From a virus, in IMG/VR virus record IMGVR_UViG_3300034064_000435, positions 1 through 25,502 of that record: 25,502 nt of DNA, one strand, 5' to 3'. A model generated the notes under the pieces. The model had not been told where the DNA came from and ran no database searches. It worked only from the letters and a program-made list of their open reading frames with translations. Below, one piece after another: positions 10,374 through 17,741 of the stretch. Position numbers and translations under genes: made by a program. Within the stretch, counting starts at the first letter, position 1. Each line of letters begins with the position of its first letter.

Positions 10374-11690
10374 TTATGTTTCTGTTGGTTTAAATTTAGA
10401 CATTGCCGATAGTTCTATCGTACCAGTCTCCCCGTCTTTATAGCAATAAAATTTTATTGGCGCACCAGACGCTAGATAGTATTCATCATTCGCCCAAGTC
10501 TCACTGTTTTCGCCCTCAAGTGTTTCAAAAAACTTGCTGTCTCCTTCCTCATCAATATCTACTGTAAAGTCTAAAACGGACGTCGTCATAGCATACATCA
10601 TCCTATACTTGTCTTGGCCGTCGGCAGATTTTATAGGTATTGGTACAAGCTCCACCATCTGTTTACCGATCTCAACAGTACTAAAATCACTTACTTCCTT
10701 GCCGGAAGCACCTTCTTTTTCTTTTGCGGCTCCTCTTCGTTTTTCAAGAATCTCTTCACGCAGCTCTTTACTTGATTTCCCTTTTGTATCAATACCTTCA
10801 GATTCGGCTATATCTTTTGTACTACGCCTGTCTCTATCTTTCCCCTCACCTCTAAGTTCGGTTTCTAGTTCGCGGTTCTTAACTTGCTCATTGAGTTTAC
10901 GAGCTTTATCAAAGTCTTCATTTTCAATAGCTTCCTCAATCTTGTCGAATATCCTATCTTTCCCACGCCGCCTCGTTCCGCCACCACCATTAGCAGCTTT
11001 AGACTCTGACTCTGCTTGGTCTATGACATCGTCAATTGTATTTCTACCTAAATCTGTTTTAAGCGATTTAGGTTTAGCCATCGAAAAACCCTCGCTGTCT
11101 GACATCCGTTCATCTTCTAGCTCCCTAGCCCTCTCTTTAAGGGTCTTTGGTTTAGCCATTGAGAACACATCATCGTCACTTTGCACCGGCTGTTGGGGCG
11201 CATTTTGTTGGTTGGTTGGTGGTGCTGGCTGACTAGCTGAGTTACTGACTTCTGCTGAATAACCACCCAATGGTGCTGGAACCAGCGACGTGGGTGGCAT
11301 ATTGATGTTATTTGCGCTGTTCCATTGTTGGGACGCGGAAGATTTAGTTTCGACATTAAAGTCTATACTACCGCCACTTATATTAGGAGACACGCCATTT
11401 ATAGTGACGTTCTTCATAGCGTCCATAAACATCCCCTTTACCGTATCTGGGGTTACAGCCTCAGTCGCCCCAAAAAAAGATAAGACAGGAAACGCTGGGG
11501 TTTGCGTACTTTGTGGCGCAATCGGGTTTTCGGTGGATTGAGGTGCTTGATTTGCTACTGTCCGTACAGCCTCCACAGACTCAGGAGATCGAGCCGGATC
11601 TCTAGGATTAGACCCCGCCTTATCTGCAAGAATATCATTCTTGCGATTATCTGGCTCAGATTTAAACTCGATGTTATTCTCCCCAGACAT
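10374..11690 (-). CDS. Large, mostly disordered unknown protein with a repeated FSMAKPK[TS]LK motif, 438 aa
   Basis: The N-terminal 175 residues are rich in Ser, Asn, Pro and Gln and probably disordered, apart from an 80-115 segment (TPDTVKGMFMDAMKNVTING) that may fold. FSMAKPKTLK (176-185) and FSMAKPKSLK (202-211) form an exact-type repeat spaced by 26 residues. A Gly/Arg stretch and long charged helices follow (about 240-330: KIEEAIENEDFDKARKLNEQ, LREEILEKRRGAAKEKEG). The last about 110 residues (FSTVEIGKQMVELVPIPIKS, then SVLDFTVDID) look like a compact beta domain. No signal peptide or membrane segment is seen. The function is unknown; a tail or internal virion protein is suggested only by location. 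The gene is AT-rich and lies three bases after the DUF3431-like gene. Confidence 0.72.
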   Translation of the reverse strand: MSGENNIEFKSEPDNRKNDILADKAGSNPRDPARSPESVEAVRTVANQAPQSTENPIAPQSTQTPAFPVLSFFGATEAVTPDTVKGMFMDAMKNVTINGVSPNISGGSIDFNVETKSSASQQWNSANNINMPPTSLVPAPLGGYSAEVSNSASQPAPPTNQQNAPQQPVQSDDDVFSMAKPKTLKERARELEDERMSDSEGFSMAKPKSLKTDLGRNTIDDVIDQAESESKAANGGGGTRRRGKDRIFDKIEEAIENEDFDKARKLNEQVKNRELETELRGEGKDRDRRSTKDIAESEGIDTKGKSSKELREEILEKRRGAAKEKEGASGKEVSDFSTVEIGKQMVELVPIPIKSADGQDKYRMMYAMTTSVLDFTVDIDEEGDSKFFETLEGENSETWANDEYYLASGAPIKFYCYKDGETGTIELSAMSKFKPTET

Positions 11691-11693
11691 AAT

Positions 11694-12287
11694 TTAATGT
11701 TGGAATACTTTACCCCACATACCTTCGAGGGCGTGACCCAAACTGATATCGGGATCAAAAGCCGCTGTATAGATACCTTTATAGTGTTCTACGGGACGCT
11801 TGAGTATGGTCTCTCTTTTAACGTAAAACTGAGCCCCGATTGAGATTGGGGTACCGGATGGGTATGGAGTACTACCCCAACCTAAACGCAGGATATGGTC
11901 CGACAGAGAATATTTCTGTACTGGCAAACCGCCGCCAGCATAACCAGCTCCTAAGTAACATACCGGATGTTCGAAGTTAGGCTCGCCAAACAAGATCTCC
12001 AAGAGATCATCCATGTGCGCAAAACAATGCGCCCAAGGATCAGCTTGAAGGAATACGGTAACCGGTAGTAGGTTGTCGTAATTATCAATAATAAATTTCA
12101 AATAATGCCCAGCCTCACGACCGGCATTTTCGATTGTTAGCGTGCGGTCAGCTGCTGTTACGTCTCGCCTATCCGCACTGTTGCTTACTGTTATTTGATA
12201 ATCCCTGTTATCTTTTTGTGGTAGATAACGTAACCAGTTCATAGGCTCCTTGTAAGAAGCCACTACAATTTCATATTGTTTGTTCAT
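11694..12287 (-). CDS. DUF3431-like protein, putative glycosyltransferase, 197 aa
   Basis: The start overlaps the stop of the Ser/Thr-rich fibre gene by four bases, implying coupled translation. DUF3431-type features run in order: N-terminal IVVASYKEPMNWL (strand plus N/E-W-L, as in GT-A-like proteins), NAGREAGHYLKFIIDNYD (54-71), TVFLQADPWAH (77-87), GAQFYVKRETILKRP (151-165) and a C-terminal LGHALEGMWGKVF. I recall DUF3431 as a family with the N-x-GRE...YL and F-LQ...H signatures and a glycosyltransferase-like look; its reaction is not established. There is no classical DxD pair, although D83 in the LQADP stretch could serve. Coupling to a fibre gene with hundreds of Ser/Thr residues suggests it may glycosylate that protein. 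A second, partial relative lies at the left window edge. Confidence 0.75.
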   Translation of the reverse strand: MNKQYEIVVASYKEPMNWLRYLPQKDNRDYQITVSNSADRRDVTAADRTLTIENAGREAGHYLKFIIDNYDNLLPVTVFLQADPWAHCFAHMDDLLEILFGEPNFEHPVCYLGAGYAGGGLPVQKYSLSDHILRLGWGSTPYPSGTPISIGAQFYVKRETILKRPVEHYKGIYTAAFDPDISLGHALEGMWGKVFQH

Positions 12288-15200
12288 ACGTATACTTCGG
12301 TTGTTTCAGTAACCCAAACACCATTTCTCCAGTGTTCAGATTGTCTAGCCACTTCAACCCAGCCGTCAAGAGATGTCGGCGTGGTCGCTGGGATAGTTAT
12401 AACCTGACCCGTAGGTAAATCAACAATTATTTCACCTCTCAAGCATTTAGGTACTGAGACCGTAAATATTGATTTACTGGTGGTGGTTGACGAGTTCTCA
12501 CCAGAAGATGAAGAACTATTTGATGAGCTGCTCGATGAACTTGTCGAAGAGCTACTAGAAGAACTGCTTGATTGGCTCCCTGACTGGCTGCTCGAAGAAC
12601 TACTGGAAGAGCTACTCGACTGGCTCCCAGACTGACTACCAGAAGAGCTGCTCGACTGACTACCAGACTGACTGCTTGACTGACTACCAGAAGAGCTGCT
12701 CGATTGGCTACCAGACTGACTGCTTGACTGACTGCCGGAAGAGCTACTCGATTGGCTACCAGACTGACTGCTTGACTGACTACCGGAAGAGCTACTCGAT
12801 TGGCTACCAGACTGACTGCTCGACTGACTGCCGGAAGAGCTACTCGATTGGCTACCAGACTGACTGCTTGACTGACTACCGGAAGAGCTACTCGATTGGC
12901 TACCAGACTGACTGCTCGACTGACTGCCGGAAGAGCTACTCGATTGGCTACCAGACTGACTGCTTGACTGACTACCGGAAGAGCTACTCGATTGGCTACC
13001 AGACTGACTGCTTGACTGACTACCGGAAGAGCTACTCGATTGGCTACCAGACTGACTACCAGACTGACTACTAGACTCGCTACGTGAAGAACTACTCGAA
13101 CTACTGCTAGACTCCGAAGAAGATCCCGAACTACTACCAGATGTATCTCCGGCCCTCTCTTCAAGCGCCGTAGTGACGTTCTGGCTTGTTTGGGGGTCAC
13201 TAGCCATAACCTCGCCGCCGCCTTTACGTGTAGCAATAGTAGACTTCTGTAAACCGGTACCGTTTTTAGAAACAGTGTTACCGGTATTAGTTGAATTCCT
13301 TGTACTAGTGCTAGTATTTGTACTAGTGCCGGTGCTTGTACCGGTACTTGTACTAGTGCCGGTACTTGTGCTTGTGCTAGTGCTAGTATTTGTACTTGTA
13401 TTTGTTCCAGTACTTGTACTTGTGCTAGTGCCGGTGTTTGTACTTGTATTCGTTCCAGTACTTGTACTTGTGCTAGTGCCAGTATTTGTACTCGTATTCG
13501 TTCCGGTACTTGTACTTGTGCTAGTGCCAGTATTTGTACTCGTATTCGTTCCGGTACTTGTGCTTGTGCTAGTGCCGGTGTTTGTACTTGTATTCGTTCC
13601 AGTACTTGTACTTGTGCTAGTGCCGGTGTTTGTACTTGTATTCGTTCCAGTACTTGTACTTGTGCTAGTGCCGGTATTTGTACTTGTATTCGTTCCGGTA
13701 CTTGTGCTTGTGCTAGTGCCGGTATTTGTACTTGTATTCGTTCCGGTACTTGTGCTTGTGCTGGTTCCGGTGTTTGTACTTGTATTCGTTCCAGTACTTG
13801 TACTTGTGCTAGTGCCGGTGTTTGTACTTGTATTCGTTCCAGTACTCGTACTAGTATTAGTTCCGGTCGAAGTGCTCGTGTTAGTGCCAGTGCTTGTACT
13901 ATTACTAGTTCCCGTATTCGTGCTTGTATTAGTACCAGTATTAGTTCCAGTACTGGTACTGGTACTGGTGTTTACACTAGTGTTATTATTAGTGCTAGTG
14001 CCAGTACTTATACTATTTGTAACAGAACTCGATGTGCTCTGCGACGTGTACTCTACACTTGCTGTAAATGCCTCAGAGGCATAATAGATTCTAGTATTAC
14101 TAGGATCAAAATCCGCTGGGGGGCCAAAAGAGAAAGAGCGTGTAAACTTAGCCTTAAGCGGTCCGTCAGGCACTCGTTTCCATGTAGGAACCGGTACGTA
14201 TCTTTCGGTGCCTACGACATTTACATCAAGAAGTACATCCGGCAGATTTTCTTTACGTAGACCGTACCATACTTGGGGGTCGGGTAAGGCTGGGAAATAC
14301 GTAATATTCCGTACGGAGTGCCACTGGTTTTTAGGTTCAATCTCAACAGTACCATAAGCACCACCTTGATTATACACGCCGCCAGTAGTGTCCGGCTCAA
14401 CAACTTCTTTAGAGACGACGAAAGGAACCCCGTACCTCTGATCTAACTGGAGACCCTCCAGTTTAGGGAAGATAGGTTCGCCATTTTCTACTGGGGCTTT
14501 AATGGTTGTCTTGATGCTCTTGCCGTCACCCAACGTAGTTACGGAACTCTCAAGAATACCGAAGCCGGAATCTGCTGGTGTTCCGTCGGCCACTAGAGAC
14601 TCGGAACGAATTGCCACAAGACCACCAAAGTCGTTAACGATAAGTTCTCCGTCAGGCAAAACAACCGGCAGCGTAACCTCAGACCGTGTAGTCTCTTTAA
14701 CCAGCTTAACATTAGGGTTGAGCTGGTCCTCAACTATCGACAGATCGTCGCCCGCTAAAGTCGGTAGGGATGCAAGGCCCTCTTTAATCTCTTCCGTCGA
14801 GATTGTAGGGATGCTTACACGAAATCTCTCAGGTACAACGTCTGGTTTCTGTATGCCGTAGCTTAATTTAAAACCTAAGAAGCTGTCTTCGATATAGGTG
14901 CGCTCCTCGATGACGTAAAGCGAATCAAACTCAGGCTCGCTCTTGGCCTGCTTCTTATCGTAGAAAACATAGTTAATGCCCTCGAAGGTACCTTCCGGTA
15001 CATCGGGCATCGGCGTTTTAAAAGCGGGAAAGTCGGGATCAAAGTCAGACCTCGGCGTGAGATAAGTCCTGATGACGACTCGAAACTCACGACCTCCGGC
15101 GTTACCGATCACATTACGGTAGCCGAATGAAAAGTTGTAACGGTCTTGCTCCTCTCGATCTGCTGCGTAGAAGAACTCAAAGATCCCGTCACGCTCGATG

Positions 15201-15391
15201 TCTACTGGCTTGACGAAGATCAGCTTGTGGTGGGGCCACTTAACGGAATCAGGATGAGCGGTCCCGTATGCAGGAATGTCGGAGCGGGTGCAGTCCTTTA
15301 CCTGACTAAACAACACATCTCCGCTGTCCGGCGTTGGATAAACGCGGCGATCTTGTCTATGCGGGGCTTGTGGTAATTGAGATATTGGCAT
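12284..15391 (-). CDS. Giant tail-fibre-like protein with two Ser/Thr-rich repeat arrays, 1035 aa
   Basis: Residues 1-448 form a folded virion-type domain (WPHHKLIFVKPVDIERDGIF, then FSFGYRNVIGN, YVFYDKK, and several beta stretches). Residues about 449-700 are built from Thr, Ser, Gly and Asn, with about ten copies of a 16-residue unit of the type GTNTSTNTGTSTSTST. A linker (about 700-753) is followed by a Ser/Gly/Gln array (753-967, unit SGSQSSSSSGSQSSSQ). Residues 967-1035 are a beta-rich end domain (SIFTVSVPKCLRGEIIVDLP, DGWVEVARQSEHW). The arrays have no hydrophobic core and resemble mucin-like or Ser-rich-repeat adhesin stalks. A particle-anchored N-domain, long stalk and receptor-facing tip would fit a fibre. 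It is coupled to a DUF3431-like gene, and the upstream fibre gene ends one base before its start. Confidence 0.85.
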   Translation of the reverse strand: MPISQLPQAPHRQDRRVYPTPDSGDVLFSQVKDCTRSDIPAYGTAHPDSVKWPHHKLIFVKPVDIERDGIFEFFYAADREEQDRYNFSFGYRNVIGNAGGREFRVVIRTYLTPRSDFDPDFPAFKTPMPDVPEGTFEGINYVFYDKKQAKSEPEFDSLYVIEERTYIEDSFLGFKLSYGIQKPDVVPERFRVSIPTISTEEIKEGLASLPTLAGDDLSIVEDQLNPNVKLVKETTRSEVTLPVVLPDGELIVNDFGGLVAIRSESLVADGTPADSGFGILESSVTTLGDGKSIKTTIKAPVENGEPIFPKLEGLQLDQRYGVPFVVSKEVVEPDTTGGVYNQGGAYGTVEIEPKNQWHSVRNITYFPALPDPQVWYGLRKENLPDVLLDVNVVGTERYVPVPTWKRVPDGPLKAKFTRSFSFGPPADFDPSNTRIYYASEAFTASVEYTSQSTSSSVTNSISTGTSTNNNTSVNTSTSTSTGTNTGTNTSTNTGTSNSTSTGTNTSTSTGTNTSTSTGTNTSTNTGTSTSTSTGTNTSTNTGTSTSTSTGTNTSTNTGTSTSTSTGTNTSTNTGTSTSTSTGTNTSTNTGTSTSTSTGTNTSTNTGTSTSTSTGTNTSTNTGTSTSTSTGTNTSTNTGTSTSTSTGTNTSTNTGTSTSTSTGTNTSTNTSTSTSTSTGTSTSTGTSTGTSTNTSTSTRNSTNTGNTVSKNGTGLQKSTIATRKGGGEVMASDPQTSQNVTTALEERAGDTSGSSSGSSSESSSSSSSSSRSESSSQSGSQSGSQSSSSSGSQSSSQSGSQSSSSSGSQSSSQSGSQSSSSSGSQSSSQSGSQSSSSSGSQSSSQSGSQSSSSSGSQSSSQSGSQSSSSSGSQSSSQSGSQSSSSSGSQSSSQSGSQSSSSSGSQSSSQSGSQSSSSSGSQSGSQSSSSSSSSSSSQSGSQSSSSSSSSSTSSSSSSSNSSSSSGENSSTTTSKSIFTVSVPKCLRGEIIVDLPTGQVITIPATTPTSLDGWVEVARQSEHWRNGVWVTETTEVYV
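12640..13070 (-). repeat. 48-bp tandem array encoding Ser/Gly/Gln units
   Basis: About eight near-identical 48-bp copies (16 codons) plus degenerate copies at the edges. Neighbouring copies differ at a few wobble sites (cttgac/ctcgac, ctgcc/ctacc), and from about 12780 to 12960 the variants alternate A-B-A-B, giving a 96-bp higher-order period. The array lies inside the fibre gene and keeps its frame. Confidence 0.9.
13380..13850 (-). repeat. 48-bp tandem array encoding Thr/Ser/Asn/Gly units
   Basis: About ten copies of a second, unrelated 48-bp unit, recognisable by gtattcgttcc on the plus strand. Copies differ mainly at synonymous positions (cca/ccg, gta/gtg, tta/ctt types), while the 16-residue protein unit is almost constant. 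It is in frame in the fibre gene and has the same period as the Ser/Gly/Gln array. Confidence 0.9.
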
Positions 15392-15392
15392 A

Positions 15393-17375
15393 TTAGGTTA
15401 CGGCTACGGCTGTTAGACGGGCTGAAATAATAGAGTATGTAGAATTAGCTGGCGAATATACGTAAGGAGCGACTTCATGGCCGCCCTCAAGATATACTAA
15501 TTTAGTAATGCTAAAAGTTACTTCATCTATACCGCCCGTATTTTCGACGGACGACGCATGAGTTTCAGACCCGTCGACCGCAACTAACGAACCACTAGGA
15601 CCGCTAAAAAGTTTAAATAGACCGTGGTTAACACCGCCCGCAGAATCAAGGTTTAAGGTAACTGTAGTAGTTACTAAAAATAGTCTATCGCTACCCGATG
15701 TATTTTTTAAAGAAAAAATATTATGTGTTTCATAGCTAAAGGTCTGAGTACTTGGGTCATAACTAGCAGCGTAAATAACTGTGGTAGTGCCAACAGCGGT
15801 GCCAACACTAAAAGGTGTAAGAGTTGAGCCGAGAGGTAACGGGATTGGTTTGTCATACACACCCCAATTGTCGTCTACAATTTGAATTGGTGTTGATATA
15901 TAAATCTCACCACGCGGCGTGACAGGATCTAATACTTTACGCCAATAGGCACTTCCGTCATATGGAGAATGTTCTTGAGTTGCCGTATAGGATGTATAAC
16001 ACCTCCAAGTACTGCCTGCATATGATACAACATCGCCGACCATATAGCCTGTTAGCTTTGTGACAATGGGGGTGCCAGCTTCCCCATTAACAGCCGGAAA
16101 CCATGAGGTTGCTAGATCAGGAGATTCAGGAGGTATAGCTTCGTTGTAGGAGGAATACCAACTAGCACCCTGTGGTTGACAATCTATCACCCAGTAACCG
16201 AGCCATCGTGCATTACTTTGTCCGTTATAATATACTGGTTTATCGTTGAAAAACCCACTGTAATACAAATCAGGAAATACTACTGAAGCCCCGTTTTTAG
16301 TTAGTTGTCCAGTTATGCGAATAATATCTGGAGGTGTAGTAGTGAAGGCGCCTCTAAAATTCCATATATCTTCGAATTCTACTGATCCACCTGAGCCAGC
16401 GGGTCCGGCTGGTCCTTGCGGGCCAGTAGCCCCTTGAGGTATAGTAAAGTTAAGTACAGCTGCACTGCTTGAGCCACTGTTTGAAACACTTGCGCTTGAA
16501 CCAGCTGCGCCAGTTGTAGTAGATCCGACAGTAACGGTAGCTGCTGCACCGTTTGTGCCCGCAGCTCCTCGCGGAATAGTAAAGTTAAGTACGGCTGCAC
16601 TGCTTGAGCCACTGTTTGAAACACTTGCGCTTGAACCAGCTGCGCCAGTTGTAGTAGGTCCGACAGTAACGGTAGCTGCTGCACCAGAAGCTCCTGTGAA
16701 CCCCGTATCTCCTTTGGGTCCGATAGGACCAGTCAACCCTTGTGGTCCAGCTACGCCCGTGTCTCCTTTGGGTCCAATAGGGCCAATCAATCCTTGTGGT
16801 CCTACATTACCTTGGTCCCCTTTCGGACCAGTAGCGCCTGTTGATCCTTGTAGTCCAACATCGCCTCTGTCCCCTTTGGGTCCAATTGGACCCGTCAACC
16901 CTTGTGGTCCGGCTACGCCCGTGTCCCCTTTAGGGCCAGTAGGGCCTGTCAATCCTTGGGGTCCGGCTACACCTTGTGAACCAGTATCGCCTTTGTCTCC
17001 TTTGGGTCCAGTAGGACCAGTCAATCCTTGGGGTCCTACGTTGCCTTGATCTCCTTTGGGTCCGATGGGACCAGTCAATCCTTGTGGCCCGACTGCGCCT
17101 GTGTCCCCTTTAGCACCGGCAGTACCTGTCAATCCTTGTAGCCCTCTAGGACCAGTTGCCCCAATGGGTCCTTGGATACCGTCATCGCCTTTATCTCCTT
17201 TTTGACCTGTAGGACCTACGGGACCAATAGGGCCAGTAGGACCAATAGGGCCAATAGGGCCAATAGGGCCAGCAGGTCCTACTATACCATCAGATATTGT
17301 AAGACTGTAACTGTTTACGTCATCTATAACATCTACAGTATTACTAGAAACTGTTACGTTGTAGCTGTCGGGCAT
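15393..17375 (-). CDS. Collagen-like tail fibre B, 660 aa
   Basis: After a short N-terminal anchor (YNVTVSSNTVDVIDDVNSYS), Gly-X-Y repeats run from about residue 33 to 231, with many GPKGDTG and GPIGPTG units that should form a collagen triple helix. Two 45-residue-spaced copies of ATVTVG...LNFTIP follow (232-315). Next is a WNFRG domain (338-440) shared with fibre A, then a chitin/carbohydrate-binding-module-like stretch (GYMVGDVVSYAGSTWRCY, 443-460, ending in AYWRKV). The C-terminal 170 residues are beta-rich and may be the trimeric tip. A role in host adsorption is likely from the layout. It follows adaptor B by three bases, and its start has no Shine-Dalgarno sequence. Confidence 0.9.
   Translation of the reverse strand: MPDSYNVTVSSNTVDVIDDVNSYSLTISDGIVGPAGPIGPIGPIGPTGPIGPVGPTGQKGDKGDDGIQGPIGATGPRGLQGLTGTAGAKGDTGAVGPQGLTGPIGPKGDQGNVGPQGLTGPTGPKGDKGDTGSQGVAGPQGLTGPTGPKGDTGVAGPQGLTGPIGPKGDRGDVGLQGSTGATGPKGDQGNVGPQGLIGPIGPKGDTGVAGPQGLTGPIGPKGDTGFTGASGAAATVTVGPTTTGAAGSSASVSNSGSSSAAVLNFTIPRGAAGTNGAAATVTVGSTTTGAAGSSASVSNSGSSSAAVLNFTIPQGATGPQGPAGPAGSGGSVEFEDIWNFRGAFTTTPPDIIRITGQLTKNGASVVFPDLYYSGFFNDKPVYYNGQSNARWLGYWVIDCQPQGASWYSSYNEAIPPESPDLATSWFPAVNGEAGTPIVTKLTGYMVGDVVSYAGSTWRCYTSYTATQEHSPYDGSAYWRKVLDPVTPRGEIYISTPIQIVDDNWGVYDKPIPLPLGSTLTPFSVGTAVGTTTVIYAASYDPSTQTFSYETHNIFSLKNTSGSDRLFLVTTTVTLNLDSAGGVNHGLFKLFSGPSGSLVAVDGSETHASSVENTGGIDEVTFSITKLVYLEGGHEVAPYVYSPANSTYSIISARLTAVAVT
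16441..16685 (-). repeat. Recent 110-bp duplication inside fibre B
   Basis: Bases 16441-16550 and 16576-16685 match at 108 of 110 positions (differences acagc/acggc and agatcc/aggtcc), offset by 135 bases, which is exactly 45 codons. They encode two copies of the Ser/Ala/Val cassette after the collagen stalk, and the frame is kept. The near-identity points to a recent duplication or active gene conversion. Confidence 0.9.
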
Positions 17376-17378
17376 AAG

Positions 17379-17741
17379 TTAGATAGTAGGATCTACTGGT
17401 GAGCCTTTAGTAATGTTCGCCCGCACAGTAACTGAACCAAAAACAAGTCGTCGTGTGCTGCCATTTCTCCTCATAAAGATATCGTACTCATAAGACCTAG
17501 ATGGGTTTAGTTCGAGGGTAGCTGCTTCCGATAGAGCGAATAAAACTTGACCCATTGAACCAGTGACTAACGTAGGTGTAAACGATACTACTTCTTTCTT
17601 AGAGCCTACTTCTCGTATGTCGGAGTGAAAAGTAGTACCCACAGATAAATCAATTAACTGTTGAGCGTCGTCGCGAATAGTCAAAACAAAATCATATTCC
17701 GCAGCTCGATCAATGGTAATGTTGTATTCGGAGGCAATCAT
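17379..17741 (-). CDS. Fibre adaptor B, paralogue of the protein at 20912-21247
   Basis: A 120-aa beta-sandwich-like protein. It aligns by eye with the 111-aa protein encoded at 20912-21247: YN-I-IA-E-F-L at the N-terminus, an IRE motif near residue 42, a P-S/T-R-S/Q-Y-x-Y/W-D segment (NPSRSYEYDIF against SPTRQYKWDFF), and LVFGSVTVRANI against LLYGTVNAVSNI at the end. Each copy lies directly before a collagen-like fibre gene, so it may attach the fibre to the particle. Similar short proteins before phage fibres, sometimes compared to BppU-type upper baseplate domains, support that idea, but no direct proof exists. It starts one base into the previous stop (TAATG). Confidence 0.78.
   Translation of the reverse strand: MIASEYNITIDRAAEYDFVLTIRDDAQQLIDLSVGTTFHSDIREVGSKKEVVSFTPTLVTGSMGQVLFALSEAATLELNPSRSYEYDIFMRRNGSTRRLVFGSVTVRANITKGSPVDPTI

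Follow-up and report, generated by a model that had tools for sequence, protein, structure and literature searches.

A Ser/Thr-Array Stalk Gene and an Overlapping DUF3431 Gene in Environmental Phages: a Candidate Acceptor and Glycosyltransferase Pair

Two overlapping genes in the fibre region of a 25.5-kb viral record (IMG/VR IMGVR_UViG_3300034064_000435, 25,502 nucleotides, hereafter the window) raise the question of whether a group of uncultured phages could be adding sugars to a fibre of their own. The first gene encodes a stalk-like protein with two long Ser/Thr-rich arrays, and the possibility arises because the next gene, present in about half of the lineages with such stalks, encodes a predicted sugar-transferring fold of the family DUF3431. 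We consider it probable that the two genes constitute an acceptor and its enzyme, with the phage DUF3431 protein acting as a protein O-glycosyltransferase on the stalk arrays; both acceptor and sugar are what we infer for a system that is known here from metagenomic contigs.

The Stalk Protein and Its Overlapping Partner

The pair and the parts of the stalk are laid out in the window as follows:

12284..15391, minus strand: stalk-like protein, 1035 amino acids (aa), ATG start (open reading frame call; relatives of the N- and C-terminal domains in IMG/VR)
13253..14083, minus strand: stalk Array 1, Thr-rich (TGTNTSTNTGTSTSTS), 48-bp unit, ~12 copies (repeat analysis)
12446..13165, minus strand: stalk Array 2, Ser-rich (SQSSSQSGSQSSSSSG), 48-bp unit, ~9 copies (repeat analysis)
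12284..12484, minus strand: stalk conserved C-terminal domain, PKCLR...IPATxP...EVARQSEHWxxGxWVTExxEV (alignment and scan)
11694..12287, minus strand: DUF3431 protein, 197 aa, ATG start, predicted GT-A fold glycosyltransferase (Pfam, invariant residues, AlphaFold2, PDB fold matches)

The initial annotation described two coupled open reading frames (ORFs) with a four-base overlap, and the junction, which reads ...GAAGTATACGTATGAACAAACAA, bears this out: the genes overlap by 4 bases because the stalk TGA and the DUF3431 ATG share ATGA. The stalk is made up, in order, of an N-terminal domain (aa 1-436), the Thr-rich array, a short linker, the Ser-rich array and a C-terminal domain (~aa 985-1035). 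Array 1 occupies residues 437-713 (277 aa, with 71 Ser and 123 Thr) and Array 2 residues 743-982 (240 aa, with 159 Ser and 6 Thr); both are ~70% Ser plus Thr, and their combined length of ~517 aa is slightly more than the ~470 residues first estimated. The term mucin-like, applied to the arrays at that stage, is apt for the density of Ser and Thr and not otherwise, Pro being nearly absent.

Every one of the six Ser codons and the four Thr codons occurs in the arrays. Among the 48-bp units of the window stalk, the codon differences comprise 50 synonymous and 5 nonsynonymous changes, whereas chance would make only ~25% of them synonymous (the p-value for this excess is indicative only, as repeat copies are non-independent). 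Because the differences between units are mostly synonymous, Ser/Thr content is maintained by selection at the protein level, and an origin of the arrays by DNA slippage alone was rejected on the same excess. Array length varies among near-identical phages, the stalk having 1035 aa in the window and 939 aa in L003, and 1062, 1218 and 1254 aa in the near-identical L012, L013 and L014, where the difference is due to the arrays; short-read assembly of repeats may contribute to these differences.

The DUF3431 Protein and Its Predicted Fold

The 197-aa protein matches Pfam PF11913 (DUF3431) at 57.2 bits against a curated cut-off of 25, which places in the family a protein whose DUF3431 signatures had been noticed at the outset. 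Its motifs are NxGRE (aa 54-58), FxQ (79-81), H87 and H185, and the residues invariant in 18 homologues are N54, G56, R57, E58, Y62, Y70, F79, Q81, H87, P108, F154, Y169, H185 and F195. It has no PHROG or NCBIfam match and no PDB match by sequence, and the literature found on DUF3431 names no activity for the family.

An AlphaFold2 model made with the 18 homologues has a predicted local distance difference test score (pLDDT) of 89.9 and a predicted template modelling score (pTM) of 0.90; an earlier model built from 6 sequences was of low quality (pLDDT 49.6), and its matches carry no weight here. In a Foldseek search of the PDB the top ranks were taken by enzymes of the glycosyltransferase A (GT-A) fold, namely an alpha-1,3-galactosyltransferase (E 2.7e-4) and the Bacteroides GT6 enzyme BoGT6a (E 4.2e-4), which its PDB title calls metal-independent. 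With VIA-align, all 50 listed PDB entries were GT-A-fold glycosyltransferases or polymerases (Z 7.7-8.8), and the wall teichoic acid enzymes RmlT (Z 8.8) and TarP (Z 8.6) were among the first matches, over ~148-149 residues at 3.3 Å. A Z of ~8 alone could reflect a common arrangement; here the listed matches are all of one kind and extend over three quarters of the protein. The best match among viral models was a phage protein named GT-A type (E 1e-9). At the level of structural models, assignment of the DUF3431 protein to the GT-A fold is thus well supported, and the glycosyltransferase-like character that had been supposed for it comes through clearly as a prediction. The DUF3431 protein has the predicted fold in common with TarP, TarS, RmlT and BoGT6a, whereas identity is only ~8-15%, the DUF3431 protein is smaller, and it has Q-x-[DEN] instead of DxD. 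Judging by the order of elements in the model, the NxGRE helix and the next strand, which carries FxQ, would sit at the GT-A donor loop and the DxD place.

A Slot Behind the Stalk Gene

Relatives of the stalk were found in IMG/VR in 25 loci by a search with the N-terminal domain and in 28 loci by a scan for the C-terminal domain, and all 28 of the latter have Ser/Thr arrays. In stalk relatives whose middle region is of another kind, long arrays and this form of the C-terminal domain are both absent; the N-terminal domain has no relative in INPHARED phages. Immediately 3′ of array stalks lies a gene for DUF3431 or, failing that, one whose product has a PDN-type N-terminus (e.g., PDNTDPRGQNI, PDNEDKRPPDII). 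Because this PDN-type protein directly follows the stalk where DUF3431 is absent, the DUF3431 position can be defined as a slot that is filled in 11 array lineages and empty in 10. The window genes on either side of the pair are:

15393..17375, minus strand: collagen-like tail fibre, 660 aa, 5′ neighbour of the stalk (Pfam Collagen, 100 bits, and PHROG tail fibre matches)
10374..11690, minus strand: 438-aa protein with PDN-type N-terminal motif, 3′ neighbour of the DUF3431 gene (ORF call)

The slot copies of the 11 lineages have 32-97% identity to the window copy, and every stalk-linked DUF3431 gene overlaps the stalk stop or begins within 18 nucleotides of it. The stalks of L006 and L073 are almost the same at the C-terminus, yet only one of them is followed by DUF3431; the L073 slot (L073:395-597) is occupied by a short ORF rich in Pro (MNSTLNLPELPEEPTLPPLPPLPALPSLPELPKLKPLPPLPEPT). 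In L071 (8209-9524), L074 (8209-9512) and L070 (1812-3115), a single stalk is followed by a tandem pair of diverged DUF3431 genes. The longest arrays seen are those of L071 (1170 aa) and L074 (858 aa), and to go by these two related phages array length may track DUF3431 copy number.

Approached from the enzyme, the association is the same. Two DUF3431-based scans in which the stalk was not used found these phages and no others: the first gave four loci, all right behind an array stalk, and the second, a motif scan of IMG/VR, gave 13 loci, 11 of them directly behind a Ser/Thr stalk gene. The remaining two lie in sugar gene clusters, each in a phage that has a stalk with DUF3431 as well. Both scans are confined in reach to close relatives, and it was from stalk-linked copies that the motif of the 13-locus scan was derived. 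The expectation in the initial annotation that in other phages, too, a DUF3431 gene would come with Ser/Thr arrays and never in their absence holds for every close relative found. By lineage, DUF3431 is present in 11/21 with array stalks and in 0/12 with array-less stalks (Fisher p 0.002, indicative only given the shared ancestry of lineages). No relative was found in INPHARED phages or in plasmids, and two pattern scans of GTDB genomes gave no confirmed one.

Sugar Genes in Stalk-Bearing Phages

Further sugar genes accompany the pair in some relatives. In the phage of L084, which carries both stalk and DUF3431, an island 3′ of the two encodes GT2 (36 bits), GT64 (24.6 bits, barely above cut-off), GT61 (68 bits), GT4 (57 bits) and RmlC (135 bits), and is followed by a conserved structural gene. 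Its relatives G033 and G034 have the same stalk type, and neither DUF3431 nor the island is found between the same neighbours. Two related phages encode a 429-aa protein in which an N-terminal DUF3431 domain is fused to a further C-terminal half, beside RmlC (221 bits) and two methyltransferases. The positions are:

L118:16815 to L119:2212: glycosylation island behind fibre genes, four glycosyltransferases and RmlC
L040:5814-10854 and L042:5036-9290: sugar gene clusters with the 429-aa DUF3431 fusion, two related phages

A GT2-like gene is present in L004 and L006. RmlC was found only in DUF3431-positive records (3/13 vs. 0/16), but the difference is non-significant (p 0.08), and two of the three records with RmlC are closely related.

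A Proposed Mechanism and Its Alternatives

Given the pairing, the slot, the conservation of motifs and the sugar islands, glycosylation of the arrays is the simplest account. The stalk would be a virion fibre-like acceptor whose two Ser/Thr arrays lie between conserved N- and C-terminal domains, and the DUF3431 protein a small soluble enzyme of predicted GT-A fold and presumed glycosyltransferase activity, which would transfer sugar from a nucleotide-sugar donor of host or phage origin to the Ser/Thr hydroxyls of the arrays. Transfer would take place in the infected cell, ahead of assembly, and in some relatives other phage glycosyltransferases, RmlC and methyltransferases may extend or modify the glycan. 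The sugars could be useful to the stalk for shielding or adhesion. A self-glycosylating fibre, as the initial annotation had it, is what these steps would amount to. The DUF3431 gene is a cassette that may be present or absent at a fixed position, which would make glycosylation a changeable stalk trait. More tentatively, with the chances perhaps a little short of even, DUF3431 may represent a new family of protein O-glycosyltransferases, and the genes a two-gene cassette for a glycosylated fibre, in which gain, duplication and loss of the enzyme gene at a single slot would make the virion sugar coat switchable in evolution.

Several observations weigh against glycosylation of the arrays by DUF3431. 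Ten array lineages have no adjacent copy, and whole-record searches (up to 70 kb) found none elsewhere on their records; DUF3431 is hence an optional companion of the stalk and no requirement. Array composition is similar with and without DUF3431, as is array length for single copies. Sugar genes occur in phages without DUF3431 (GT1 in G033 and the array-less G014), and an NAD epimerase lies near an array-less stalk in L028. The stalk has no Pfam, PHROG or NCBIfam match, and its N- and C-terminal domains no significant PDB match by sequence, that would place it in the virion; its neighbouring tail-fibre genes suggest that it is a virion fibre-like protein. The classical DxD is absent from the enzyme, with Q81-x-[D/E/N]83 at the expected place, where the Gln is invariant and the third position varies. 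DxD is common but not universal in the GT-A fold, and activity remains compatible with its absence because metal-independent GT-A enzymes without DxD exist.

The same facts can be read in other ways. DUF3431 could be a real glycosyltransferase with another acceptor, be it the collagen-like fibre, the 438-aa neighbour or, in a block to superinfection, a host surface glycan: the slot sits between the stalk and a second fibre-region gene, array stalks without DUF3431 occur, and phage glycosyltransferases that act on DNA or alter host serotype are among those reported in PMC12619734. We regard this as unlikely, since DUF3431 goes specifically with Ser/Thr stalks and does not follow the array-less members of the stalk family, and its sequence appears to lack the hydrophobic membrane segment typical of serotype-converting transferases. 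Were the arrays instead plain, unmodified flexible linkers and DUF3431 a passenger in a variable slot, then its absence from about half of the array lineages, the Pro-rich ORF in the slot of L073 and the differing array lengths of near-identical phages would all be accounted for; the recurrence of diverged copies in the same slot in 11 lineages, the tandem duplicates of L070, L071 and L074, and a motif scan that gave no close relative outside stalk-bearing phages make this improbable.

Genes right behind tail-fibre genes often encode fibre chaperones, and the gene position, the overlap and the missing DxD could all fit a fibre-specific assembly chaperone built on a degenerate GT-A fold. Such a role is hard to square with the many stalks of the family, array stalks among them, that manage without DUF3431, with invariant residues that are mostly polar (N54, R57, E58, Q81, H87 and H185) and include expected GT-A donor-site elements, or with the second form of DUF3431 in a sugar gene cluster, and we consider it very improbable.

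Comparison With Known Systems

In the serine-rich repeat protein (SRRP) loci of Gram-positive bacteria, as described in PMC7661464, an acceptor with two Ser/Thr arrays lies beside genes for cytosolic glycosyltransferases, and accessory glycosyltransferases vary between islands. A long Ser/Thr repeat protein, here a putative acceptor, and an adjoining enzyme gene are common to both systems, whereas here the context is that of a tail fibre and the enzyme a DUF3431 protein. None of the SRRP genes in the definition given there (secA2, secY2, asp, GtfA/GtfB) was found among the window ORFs and the neighbours examined, and as read from its sequence the stalk, which starts MPISQLPQAPHRQDRR and ends VTETTEVYV, has neither a signal sequence nor an LPxTG anchor. 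Of the resemblance to SRRP loci first proposed, the logic therefore stands and membership does not (there is no accessory Sec, GtfA/GtfB or LPxTG anchor in what was examined): by analogy, the stalk/DUF3431 pair may work like a reduced SRRP locus, yet it is no member of that group.

Phage-encoded glycosylation of virions is known from the mycobacteriophage Che8 and its relatives, where, in the accounts cited, glycans are carried at the C-termini of capsid and tail-tube subunits (Freeman et al., 2023, cited in PMC12619734 and PMC11256854). Both there and here phage-encoded glycosyltransferases are linked to a virion structural protein, although in our case the glycosyltransferase is predicted from its gene, the putative acceptor is a long Ser/Thr stalk of presumed virion location, the genes form an overlapping pair and the enzyme family differs. 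Glycosyltransferase genes in the phage genomes comprise the predicted GT-A DUF3431 of the window and the Pfam GT2, GT64, GT61 and GT4 of L084's phage. According to PMC5519750, an Aspergillus member of DUF3431, encoded next to a gene for a putative glucan synthase, has a predicted membrane anchor, with the large part of the protein outside; the phage form, by contrast, has ~200 aa, lacks a membrane anchor and is paired with a stalk. Virion glycosylation in phages has so far been known from a few mycobacteriophages, and a compact acceptor-enzyme pair in environmental phages would, if true, show a wider spread, offer a minimal system with acceptor and enzyme known from the outset, and provide the first functional lead for DUF3431.

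Two minor observations concern the genes 5′ of the stalk. The collagen-like fibre has a 135-bp near-perfect duplication together with Gly-x-y arrays (window 16441-17375), and the gene at 17379-17741 is weakly LtfC-like, which suggests assembly of the L-shaped tail fibre type.

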